64,000 nt of DNA. Source: Darksidea phi (taxonomy: Eukaryota > Ascomycota > Dothideomycetes > Pleosporales > Lentitheciaceae). The translations under genes and the position numbers were made by a program. Below, one piece after another: positions 31,824 through 44,472 of the stretch (position 1 is its first letter; each line of letters begins with the position of its first letter). The notes beneath the pieces were generated by a model. The model saw only the letters and a list, made by a program, of their open reading frames with translations, was not told the DNA's origin and made no database searches. The stretch lies in NCBI GenBank assembly GCA_030770425.1, contig JASJFT010000027.1, forward strand, positions 1-64,000, given 5' to 3'.

Positions 31824-34325
31824 ATGGGCGCACCGGGTGTAACAGGCCGTACACGGCCTACCAAGGTCAAGAAGCAGGCAGCTGTTCAAAAAAGGAAGCG
31901 CGAAGATGTCGATGTGGAGAAGCTTGAGCAGGCAGTTGCGGACATTGTACGTCCTTACCGGTGTACCACTACTTATTACTCACACGTGCAGGATCCCAAA
32001 AACGACTCGTATGAAGACTTCACAGATCTCCCCCTCTCCGACCCGACGAAGCAGGGTCTCAAGTCATGTCATTTCGCGGTCATGACCGACGTCCAAGCCA
32101 AGGCCATCCCACTTGCACTCAAGGGCCACGATATACTCGGCGCGGCGAAGACCGGTAGTGGGAAAACGTTGGCTTTCTTGATACCCGTCCTCGAAAACCT
32201 ATACCGACTGCAGCATATCGGGACGGATGCAGGCTTAGGCGCATTGATTATTTCGCCTACTCGCGAACTCGCGATACAGATCTTCGATGTACTGCGCAAG
32301 ATCGGAAGGCATGGCCACATGTTTGCCGCAGGGCTGGTGATAGGAGGCAAGAGTCTGGAATCTGAGCGACAAGCGCTGACGAAGATGAACATTCTGGTCG
32401 GCACACCCGGGCGGCTACTGCAGCATTTGTCGCAAACCGTCGCGTTTAATGTGGACGATTTGAAGATGCTAGTTTTAGACGAAGCAGATCGAATTCTTGA
32501 CATGGGTTTTCAGAAGGACGTTGATGCCATCATCGAGTACCTGCCGAAGGAAAGGCAAACACTACTATTTTCCGCTACGCAATCGAAGAAAGTCTCGGAT
32601 CTAGCGCGACTGAGTTTACAGGATCCAGAATACGTTTCCGTGCACGCAGAGGACAGAACCGCAACGCCGAAGTCCCTACAGCAGAACTACATTATCTGCC
32701 CGGTTGAGGAAAAACTGGATACGCTATGGAGCTTCATACAAGCAAGCAAAAAGTCCAAGATACTCTGCTTCTTCTCTTCGGCAAAGATGGTCCGTTTCGT
32801 CTACGAATCGTTTCGACATCTGCAGCCCGGTATCCCACTACTACATATCCATGGTCGCCAGAAGCAGGGCGCTCGTTTAGACGTTACCGCCAAGTTCTCT
32901 GCGGCCAAGGCTTCATGTCTTTTCGCTACGGACGTTGCTGCACGCGGCCTCGACTTCCCCGCTGTCGATTTCGTCATTCAAGTTGATTGTCCGGAAGACG
33001 TTGACACCTACATTCACCGTGTAGGTCGCACGGCTCGGTACAATCGCGAAGGCCGCGGCGTGCTCTTTCTGACACAAAGCGAAGAAGAAGGCATGTTGAA
33101 GCGTCTCGAAGTCAAGAAAGTGCCCATCGAGGTCATCAATGTCCGCCAGAAGAAGAAGCAGTCGATTAAGTGCCAGATGGTGCACATGTGCTTCAAGGAT
33201 CCGGAGCTCAAATATCTTGCGCAGAAGGCTTTCATCACGTATACAAGATCGATCTATCTGCAGAGAGATAAGGAAATCTTCAACATTAGGAACTATGATT
33301 TGGAAGCCTTTGCTGCAAGTATGGGCTTGCCAGGGGCACCAAAGATCAAATTCTTGAAGGATGATGGCGGTAAACAACGGAAACAGCAGTCACGACAGGA
33401 GCTCGAAGTGCCTGAGTCATCAGATGGGGAAGCGAATGACGCGATCAAGGCGAATGCTAAGCCAGTACGAACGAAGTACGATCGCATGTTTGAAAGACAG
33501 AACCAAGATGTTCTCGCGGATCATTACAAGAGGCTGGTCAAGGATAGTGAAGAGGATGAGGTCTCCGCAGACGAGCACGATTTCACAGGCGTGAAGCCAA
33601 CAGCTGGAGATGATGAGGACTTCCTTGCTGTTAAAAGGAGGATATCAGCTGAAGATGATGAAGCAAATATGCAACTCAACGACGGAGACAAACCTATCGT
33701 ACCGGGCGGCAGGGTTGTCAACATACAAGGCGCCTCTCAGCCTATCATCATCGACAGCAACCGCCGCGAAAAGCTCCTAAAATCTAAGAAGAAGCTTACC
33801 AAGCTCATGGACAAGGGCAAGAAACTCGTTTACGACGACGACGGCAACGCTCACGAAATCTACGAGCTCGAAGACGAGAAGGACTTCCGCGCCAAAGGCC
33901 TACCAGAAGAGCAAAGACAGAAGTTCATCGATTCCGCACGGGAAGTCGTCGCACAAGCCGATGTTGAAGACAAAGCGACCGCAAAGGCAAAGAGGAAAGA
34001 GAAAGCACGGAAGCGGAAGGAGCGCGAGAGGAACGAAGAGGCAGGAATTGGTGAGGACTGGGACGAGGAAGAAGGTGGCGTGGAGCTTGAAGATCCTGGC
34101 GAAGATTTGCTGGCGAACTTTAGGGCTGATGCCGCGTATAGTGATGAAGATGAGGCGGAGGAGGAGAAATTACCAAAGGTTAAGAAGTGGTTTGAGTCGG
34201 ATTCCGAAGAGGACGAGAGGAGTAGTAAGAAGAGGAAGAAGGGCAAGAGGAGCGAGAGGAATGTCGTAGCCGAGCCCGAGACGCTGGAGGATATGGAGGC
34301 TTTGGCTGCGGGGCTGCTTGGGTGA
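31824..34325 (+). CDS. dbp4: ATP-dependent RNA helicase DBP4
   Basis: Read through without splicing it is 833 aa. A GT-AG intron of 45 nt at 31947-31991, which contains no stop, is likely removed, giving 818 aa. Motifs: LPLSDPTKQGLKSCHF and TDVQAKAIPLAL (Q motif region), AKTGSGKTLAF (Walker A), [42 protein letters not shown] and [12 protein letters not shown]4217-type region follows (QKAFITYTRSIYLQRDKEIFN) and a long Asp/Glu/Lys-rich tail. DBP4 acts in the nucleolus in early pre-rRNA processing and U14 snoRNA release for 18S rRNA. All catalytic motifs are intact. With DBP10 in the same window, two ribosome-assembly helicases lie 10 kb apart. Confidence 0.95.
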   Translation: MGAPGVTGRTRPTKVKKQAAVQKRKREDVDVEKLEQAVADIVRPYRCTTTYYSHVQDPKNDSYEDFTDLPLSDPTKQGLKSCHFAVMTDVQAKAIPLALKGHDILGAAKTGSGKTLAFLIPVLENLYRLQHIGTDAGLGALIISPTRELAIQIFDVLRKIGRHGHMFAAGLVIGGKSLESERQALTKMNILVGTPGRLLQHLSQTVAFNVDDLKMLVLDEADRILDMGFQKDVDAIIEYLPKERQTLLFSATQSKKVSDLARLSLQDPEYVSVHAEDRTATPKSLQQNYIICPVEEKLDTLWSFIQASKKSKILCFFSSAKMVRFVYESFRHLQPGIPLLHIHGRQKQGARLDVTAKFSAAKASCLFATDVAARGLDFPAVDFVIQVDCPEDVDTYIHRVGRTARYNREGRGVLFLTQSEEEGMLKRLEVKKVPIEVINVRQKKKQSIKCQMVHMCFKDPELKYLAQKAFITYTRSIYLQRDKEIFNIRNYDLEAFAASMGLPGAPKIKFLKDDGGKQRKQQSRQELEVPESSDGEANDAIKANAKPVRTKYDRMFERQNQDVLADHYKRLVKDSEEDEVSADEHDFTGVKPTAGDDEDFLAVKRRISAEDDEANMQLNDGDKPIVPGGRVVNIQGASQPIIIDSNRREKLLKSKKKLTKLMDKGKKLVYDDDGNAHEIYELEDEKDFRAKGLPEEQRQKFIDSAREVVAQADVEDKATAKAKRKEKARKRKERERNEEAGIGEDWDEEEGGVELEDPGEDLLANFRADAAYSDEDEAEEEKLPKVKKWFESDSEEDERSSKKRKKGKRSERNVVAEPETLEDMEALAAGLLG

Positions 34326-43885: not shown

Positions 43886-44068
43886 TGCAATCCGCCTTCG
43901 TAGATCTACTGTGAATCAGCCGTCAGATCTCCACTAGCCCCTCGCTACCACAACCTCACCGCCACGATAAGCAGAACCCCGCCATCCCTGCGTGTCCCCG
44001 ACGCGCACAAGCATTACGTATATAAATTATCAGTTTCTTCAAATCACTAAATTCTCCCAAAGCATCAA

Positions 44069-44224
44069 GGCAAGATGGTACGATGTCCCCGGTTCCCCCC
44101 ATCCACCCATCAGCCCCGCTAACACCTCTCTCAGGCCGAGTGGTCTAAGGCGCTGTGTTTAGGCTTATCCCAAAGCTCAAATCCGCAGTCTTCACGGGCG
44201 TGGGTTCGAATCCCACTCTTGTCA
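44069..44224 (+). tRNA. tRNA-Leu(UAG) with anticodon-loop intron and a 57-nt GT-AG intron before the D arm
   Basis: The 3' part is unmistakable: D arm GCC-GAGTGGTCTAA-GGC (44135-44151), anticodon stem CTGTG/CGCAG, anticodon TAG at 44160-44162, a 19-nt canonical intron at 44164-44182, a long class II variable region, and T arm GTGGG-TTCGAAT-CCCAC. The 3' acceptor strand is TCTTGTC plus A (44217-44224). The bases just upstream of the D arm cannot pair with it. GGCAAGA at 44069-44075 pairs over all seven positions (one G-U) and is followed by TG, exactly nucleotides 8-9. Between them lie 57 nt (44078-44134) that start GTACG, contain the branch sequence GCTAAC and end in CTCTCTCAG, a textbook fungal spliceosomal intron. 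T-runs at 44229 and 44241 can serve as Pol III terminators. Confidence 0.8.
44078..44134 (+). other. GT-AG intron-like insert inside the tRNA gene
   Basis: It separates tRNA nucleotides 9 and 10 and splits the A box. The intact B box is GGTTCGAATCC. Retaining the insert leaves AGGCCGAGTGG, one mismatch from an A box. Confidence 0.7.
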
Positions 44225-44472
44225 AGCGCTTTTCAAGGATCTTTTTTGGGGTCGTGGTGGTGCTGGGGGGAGGGGGGAATGTGTGGATGGGGGGAGACAT
44301 GGGATGACGTGTTGGGCGGGGGGCCCTTCCGATGCGCGCCGAGTGGTGCAGGGAAAAGGAAATTTGTTTTTGGGACTAATTATATGCTGTGTTGAATTTC
44401 TACAAGCGCGCAAGAAAGACTTAACCAGCCCAACTGCCGCTTACCCACCCCCTGGAACGTCAACAGGCAACA

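Follow-up and report, generated by a model that had tools for sequence, protein, structure and literature searches.

At least 20 nuclear tRNA genes of the fungus Darksidea phi, one in the window studied here and 19 elsewhere, are interrupted by at least 22 inserts resembling spliceosomal introns, at 16 positions. Judging from their sequence, these inserts are very probably U2-type spliceosomal introns in genes transcribed by RNA polymerase III (Pol III), and the spliceosome would excise them ahead of the tRNA endonuclease. We consider it probable, too, that the spliceosome is an obligatory tRNA-maturation enzyme in this organism. The Lys-UUU, Glu-UUC, Gln-UUG, Arg-UCU, Arg-ACG, Leu-CAA, Leu-UAG and Val-CAC tRNAs would then exist only as spliceosome products (with the splicing endonuclease, SEN, acting next on any 37/38 intron), including one anticodon assembled by the spliceosome and one 5-nt micro-exon, and the introns possibly arose by reverse splicing.

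The introns of tRNAs and mRNAs are taught as two unconnected systems that differ in site, enzyme and polymerase. If it is confirmed, the arrangement described here would break that separation on a large scale and make translation directly dependent on the spliceosome, and a sizeable share of tRNA genes would be missed by annotation tools.

The tRNA-Leu(UAG) gene of the window

The window is the whole stretch of DNA analysed, 64,000 nt of contig JASJFT010000027.1 (assembly GCA_030770425.1). The initial annotation had placed in it a tRNA-Leu gene with anticodon UAG, a 5' acceptor strand GGCAAGA followed by TG, a GT-AG insert between nucleotides 9 and 10 and a second, canonical tRNA intron. Each of these features was borne out, and the interpretation as a whole is supported. 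GGCAAGA pairs with TCTTGTC at all seven acceptor positions, one of them a G-U pair, and once the 57 nt after nucleotide 9 are removed ARAGORN calls tRNA-Leu(tag), its 19-nt intron lying at 37/38 (Table 1).

Table 1. Features of the tRNA-Leu(UAG) gene (window positions) and sites of the inserts in all interrupted tRNA genes (tRNA nucleotides on either side of the insert)
Feature	Location	Strand	Remarks
TATA box (TATATAAA)	44019..44026	+	50 nt before tRNA 5' end; likely TFIIIB/Pol III start signal
Exon 1 of tRNA-Leu(UAG) (GGCAAGATG)	44069..44077	+	Acceptor nucleotides 1-7 GGCAAGA plus nucleotides 8-9 TG; 7/7 pairs with 44217-44223
57-nt GT-AG insert, putative U2-type spliceosomal intron	44078..44134	+	5' site GTACGA, 3' site CTCAG
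Branch-site motif CTAAC (in GCTAAC)	44119..44123	+	Branch A 44122, 12 nt before last intron base
Exon 2, nucleotides 10-37 (begins GCCGAGTGGTCTAAGGCGC)	44135..44163	+	D arm, 5' anticodon arm; ARAGORN on spliced form
Anticodon TAG	44160..44162	+	ARAGORN on spliced form
19-nt canonical tRNA intron, 37/38	44164..44182	+	Not GT-AG; ARAGORN i(39,19); boundary can slide 1-2 bases
Exon 3	44183..44224	+	3' anticodon arm, variable arm, T arm (B box 44203-44213), 3' acceptor, discriminator A
Pol III terminator region	44230..44247	+	TTTT (44230-44233), TTTTTT (44242-44247); first T-run at +5
Leu(UAG), window	9/10
Leu(AAG) L067	15/16
Val(CAC) L134	20/21
Arg(UCU) L159	19/20 and 24/25		Inserts flank 5-nt exon TAGCG
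Ile(AAU) L146 and L174	25/26
Lys(UUU) L126	28/29
Arg(ACG) L127 and L128	30/31
Arg(ACG) L139	45/46
Leu(CAA) L079 (C85)	34/35 and 49/50		34/35 insert splits anticodon
Glu(UUC) L119	51/52
Ala(AGC) L052	52/53
Gln(UUG) L051	53/54
Initiator Met L054 and Gln(CUG) L168	54/55
Ala(AGC) L169, Pro(CGG) L172, Pro(UGG) L173, Gly(CCC) L181	58/59

Interrupted tRNA genes of this kind escape tools such as ARAGORN and Rfam. ARAGORN makes no tRNA call on the unspliced 156-nt gene; over the window, neither ARAGORN nor Rfam at gathering score reports a tRNA, and a permissive Rfam scan gives no tRNA-family match at the locus. The gene is likewise absent from the matches listed by an RF00005 profile search of the genome, in which 63 of 1735 candidates were scored.

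When the 57-nt insert was shuffled 20,000 times, no shuffle combined the 5' motif with a terminal AG and a branch motif lying 9-12 nt before it. Under a looser rule, which lets the branch A lie 6-40 nt from the end and tries five junction placements, the shuffle pass rate was 3e-4. The insert is confirmed as a real GT-AG interruption of tRNA-Leu(UAG), above chance. At its 3' junction the A box is mostly restored by the intron AG together with GCCGAGTGG.

Interrupted tRNA genes across the genome

Genes were sought with a tRNA model, T-arm patterns, spliced-exon BLAST, D-arm patterns and a pattern joining the T loop to a 5' splice site, and the loci were then read. The tRNA-model step scored 63 of 1735 candidates; of the 52 matches from one pattern step 50 were read, and C469:156552 and C474:88868 were left out. 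Among 54 classified tRNA genes, 20 are interrupted and 34 were judged free of such inserts, a sample rather than a census from which decayed or ambiguous loci are excluded. The window gene is no isolated oddity but belongs to a pattern shared by at least 20 tRNA genes. A stricter count, omitting the decayed L139 and L174 and the near-duplicate L128, gives 19 inserts in 17 genes.

Insert positions (Table 1) were numbered by hand from the exon junctions. None of the 22 inserts uses the canonical position 37/38, and a reading as canonical tRNA introns was rejected on that ground.

Several loci stand outside the counts. Four are decayed with no insert seen (L012, L026, L034, L049); others are the ambiguous L120 and Gly(GCC)-like L056, and L158, an Arg(ACG) copy lacking both an insert and a 5' acceptor. 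L167 and L195 together form the 3' half of a Leu(CAA) gene, whose 5' half was sought over about 500 nt and not found. Contigs C304 and C417 and locus L031 are of mitochondrial type, an organellar label judged from gene clustering, and some pattern matches were unlike tRNA.

The searches also turned up repeats. Four loci left out as such (L050, L053, L058, L091) share a Ser(GGA)-like tRNA element with similar 3' flanks, resembling a tRNA-derived short repeat. L129/L143 and L180/L182, also left out, are two-copy Pol III-like elements with a T-arm-like motif, and a TATA-like stretch lies upstream of L129 and L143. A dispersed repeat ending in a T-arm-like motif occurs at L063, L108 and L136; one copy continues into the 3' half of a tRNA-Ile, and L136, with an Ile 3' half behind the repeat, was not counted. 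The flank of L079 holds an ORF that looks, by eye, kinesin-like.

Splice signals of the inserts

All 22 inserts are 47-57 nt long, begin with GTNNG or GCAAG, end in AG (as TAG, CAG or AAG) and contain a YTNAY branch motif whose A lies 9-12 nt from the 3' end. The 5' hexamers are GTAAGT (9), GTACGT (3), GCAAGT (2), GTATGT (2), GTAAGC (2) and others (4), and the branch motifs CTAAC (10), CTAAT (8), CTGAC (2), TTAAC (1) and TTGAC (1). Two inserts, those of L174 and L067, begin with GCAAGT and have GC-AG in place of GT-AG ends.

For 21 inserts, L181 excepted, the shuffles of each passed the strict rule at a rate of 2e-4 or less, the 9-12 nt branch distance in that rule having been set after the data were seen. 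The loose rule defined above, with its five sliding junction placements, is passed by all 22 real inserts and by 0.02-0.5% of the shuffles of each. L181 was found by a pattern that fixes the first six insert bases, so the 5'-site evidence is independent for 21 inserts. Where repeats permit a slide of 1-2 nt, junctions were placed with GT-AG in mind; the 3' junctions of L051 and of the second L079 insert were set by the cloverleaf rather than by the nearest AG, and the branch A then lies 10 nt from the end.

As a control, canonical introns of 10-30 nt are present in 14 of the 20 genes, and none starts with GT or ends with AG. Those of L127 and L128 ended in AG under their first boundaries; the boundaries adopted lie two bases away, where the anticodon stem closes.

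Three mRNA introns in the window, placed by alignment of P0142 and P0001, measure 45, 48 and 94 nt, start with GTACGT, GTGAGA and GTACGT and end in AG; each has YTNAY 9-15 nt from its end, as CTCAC in two. Set against these three introns, the inserts are within the mRNA-intron length range of the genome. No stop codon interrupts the Dbp4 ORF at 31947-31991, where an in-frame intron of 45 nt (GTACGT...GCAG) is apparent; the listed protein is therefore about 15 residues too long.

Integrity and copy number of the interrupted genes

After in silico splicing, 18 of the 20 genes are called as tRNAs with the expected anticodon. The two exceptions are both decayed: L139 has 5/7 acceptor pairs, and L174 gives no ARAGORN call. 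Four interrupted genes have uninterrupted paralogues with an identical mature sequence: that of the initiator Met gene L054 is present in L009, that of Leu(AAG) L067 equals L045, and those of Ala(AGC) L052 and L169 equal L039, canonical introns aside in the last three. The near-duplicates L127 and L128 encode the same mature tRNA, and their within-gene differences are confined to introns.

Uninterrupted copies of the same isoacceptor exist for iMet (L009), Ala(AGC) (L039), Leu(AAG) (L045), Ile(AAU) (L011) and Gln(CUG) (L112). A DNA search of the genome with the whole 156-nt window gene returned only itself; this search is of limited sensitivity, having missed Leu(CAG) too, and spliced exons were therefore used for copy number. 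A BLAST of the genome with a joined query of eight spliced tRNAs reached tRNAs only 74-83% identical, and for none of Leu(UAG), Lys(UUU), Arg(UCU), Val(CAC), Gln(UUG), Glu(UUC), Arg(ACG) and Leu(CAA) did it reveal an intact gene without an insert. The remaining matches were different isoacceptors, the defective L158 and the Leu(CAA) 3' half that lacks a 5' half. Six approximate yeast or Neurospora tRNA queries gave no match, which shows little. By the wobble rules, Lys UUU, Glu UUC and Gln UUG have no substitute. The initial annotation had held that another, uninterrupted Leu(UAG) gene, together with a lack of spliced reads, would mark the insertion as dead; spliced-exon BLAST of the draft assembly found no such gene, and the window gene, with its fully paired acceptor stem, shows neither decayed exons nor a spare copy.

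The assembly behind these copy numbers is a draft of 51.35 Mb in 477 contigs. Pattern-based searches of it recognised no gene for Phe, Trp, elongator Met, Val(AAC), Val(UAC) or Ser(CGA), and none for Gly(GCC) apart from the Gly(GCC)-like L056. These isotypes may be interrupted in ways that the patterns missed; since some isotypes are unrecognised, genes may be missing from the assembly, and the single-copy claims are to be read with that caveat. The Dbp4 protein of the window shares 88% identity with its Lentithecium fluviatile counterpart and 79-80% with those of Periconia and Massarina, as expected of a pleosporalean fungus near Lentitheciaceae. For Dbp4 and for an arrestin gene the genome has a single close match apiece, in both cases on the window contig (best pieces 90% and 93-96%, against 48% for the next Dbp4-like match), a result that covers this contig and speaks against a mixed assembly.

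Transcription

Of the interrupted genes, 16 of 20 carry a TATAWW motif in the region from -62 to -30, as do 21 of the 34 uninterrupted tRNA genes; these are raw counts, and only 46 nt upstream were available for L174. In the window gene the motif stands at -50, about the same distance as in many uninterrupted tRNA genes. A T-run follows within 40 nt in 18 of the 20 interrupted genes, and L168 shows a run of ten T in a longer sequence. A TTTT would end Pol III transcription. No insert contains one, against an average of 4.8 in shuffles of 21 of them (P about 0.002).

The A or B box is split in many interrupted genes, so the upstream TATA box probably matters more in them than usual. In the initiator Met gene L054 (C312), whose own B box is split, the T-loop insert contains a B-box-like GTTCGATTCC, possibly a replacement internal promoter.

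Alternative explanations

It is unlikely that the inserts are spliced from Pol II rather than Pol III transcripts. Pol II transcripts are the usual substrates of the spliceosome, the TATA box would suit either polymerase, and the A or B box is split in several of the genes. The downstream T-runs, the lack of TTTT within inserts and a TATA placement resembling that of uninterrupted tRNA genes all argue for Pol III instead. The initial annotation had supposed that a GT-AG intron in a Pol III gene would need Pol II transcription or some other route: the intron itself stood, and the need for Pol II did not. By analogy, Pol II transcription is not needed for a spliceosomal intron in a tRNA gene, because such an intron is known in a Pol III transcript, the U6 RNA of fission yeast (PMC10484740). 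Alternatively, the interrupted genes might be dead, their inserts having entered spare tRNA copies and never being spliced. Decayed copies do exist (L139, L174), as do spare uninterrupted copies for five isoacceptors. We regard this as very unlikely, given that eight isoacceptors have no intact uninterrupted gene in the BLAST of the draft assembly, some of them lacking a wobble substitute; that the exons are otherwise intact; that the changes within L127 and L128 fall in introns only; and that splice signals in every insert are not expected of dead insertions.

Removal by SEN and a ligase through a bulge-helix-bulge, as in Cyanidioschyzon and archaea, would draw on the known route for tRNA introns outside 37/38, and the insertion sites described there overlap those found here (PMC4090602). 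We consider it very unlikely in D. phi. Strict bulge-helix-bulge geometry occurs in 0/22 inserts, 21 of them informative (L168 is too short to score); this test covers the strict geometry only and little was expected by chance either, as 0.3% of shuffles fit. SEN cutting would also leave the 5' motif, branch motif and AG of all 22 inserts unexplained. Chance, in the form of random insertions or misplaced exons that merely resemble introns, could appeal to the shortness of the motifs and the latitude in placing some junctions. This reading has a negligible probability and is already refuted in aggregate by the loose-rule comparison, in which every insert passes, and faces precise paralogue pairs with and without the insert. 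Self-splicing was rejected as well: a group I or II catalytic core is far longer than 57 nt, the inserts measure 47-57 nt, and the window has no Rfam match at gathering score.

Proposed pathway

For spliceosomal introns in Pol III genes, we infer the following order of events. In the window gene, Pol III would start about 20 nt upstream of the tRNA, directed by the TATA box, and would transcribe the 5' leader, exon 1, the intron and the remainder up to the T-run. The U1 and U2 snRNPs would bind GTACGA and GCTAAC, and the spliceosome would join nucleotide 9 to nucleotide 10 in the nucleus. The tRNA body would be expected to fold only after this step, whereupon RNase P, tRNase Z and SEN could work, and SEN would cut out the 19-nt intron at 37/38 after the spliceosome had acted. 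The SEN enzyme reads the folded tRNA body; for inserts that break an arm, the spliceosome would for that reason have to come before it.

Such genes would be a natural setting in which to test how the spliceosome locates Pol III transcripts, which have no Pol II tail or cap. They would likewise test the minimum size of an exon and the spread of spliceosomal introns by reverse splicing into abundant RNAs.

Relation to known systems and origin

The U6 snRNA of fission yeast carries an mRNA-type intron in a Pol III transcript, for which reverse splicing has been proposed as the origin (Tani and Ohshima 1989, cited in PMC10484740). As described there, it too is spliceosomal and sits in a small RNA that Pol III makes in an ascomycete; its host, however, is an RNA of the spliceosome itself, whereas the hosts in D. 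phi are tRNAs, in at least 20 genes and at 16 positions. In the D. phi genome the best U6 match spans the complete Rfam model within 100 nt and contains no insert. Spliceosomal introns are also reported in the nuclear rDNA of ascomycetes and lichens (Bhattacharya 2000 and Cubero 2000, cited in PMC8527467 and PMC11889510), and the same sources state that yeast removes spliceosomal introns from Pol I transcripts. As presented there, these too lie outside Pol II genes, but in rRNA transcribed by Pol I and not in tRNA.

Ectopic tRNA introns are described in archaea, nucleomorphs and Cyanidioschyzon, with the splicing endonuclease acting where the route is known (PMC4090602; see also PMC9602550), and arm insertions in tRNAs of other eukaryotes have been supposed to be pseudogenes (PMC4090602). 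As in D. phi, the introns reported for Cyanidioschyzon merolae, nucleomorph and archaeal tRNAs occur in the D, anticodon and T arms, several per gene and beside a 37/38 intron. Those of C. merolae and archaea are ascribed to the splicing endonuclease acting on a bulge-helix-bulge (PMC4090602, PMC9602550), and those of nucleomorphs are 3-24 nt in Guillardia, by a route that the review calls unknown. The D. phi inserts differ in being 47-57 nt long, with GT-AG or GC-AG ends, a branch site and no strict bulge-helix-bulge. They differ equally from the canonical eukaryotic tRNA introns of the same genes (in 14 of the 20, 10-30 nt), which occupy one site, 37/38, and lack GT-AG. In the open-access literature as represented by titles and the starts of abstracts, a body that excludes preprints and most subscription papers, the matches listed included no spliceosomal introns in tRNA genes.

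Introner-like elements, which van der Burgt is said to have described in 2012, are reportedly a means of spliceosomal intron gain in fungi. The D. phi inserts would also be fungal spliceosomal intron gains, but they share no family: in a pairwise alignment of 21 inserts, a comparison confined to the inserts and not extended to mRNA introns genome-wide, the only strong match was the duplicate pair L127/L128, and an introner family was rejected. Because the inserts are otherwise not copies of each other, a single introner burst appears unlikely as their origin. Reverse splicing into RNA, with subsequent reverse transcription and gene conversion, would fit the precise gains seen in intact tRNAs. 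The Ala(AGC) gene L169 has a T-loop insert and no 37/38 intron, and its sisters L039 and L052 have a 37/38 intron. Speculating from this one locus, L169 would fit the entry of an intron into a tRNA already spliced by SEN.
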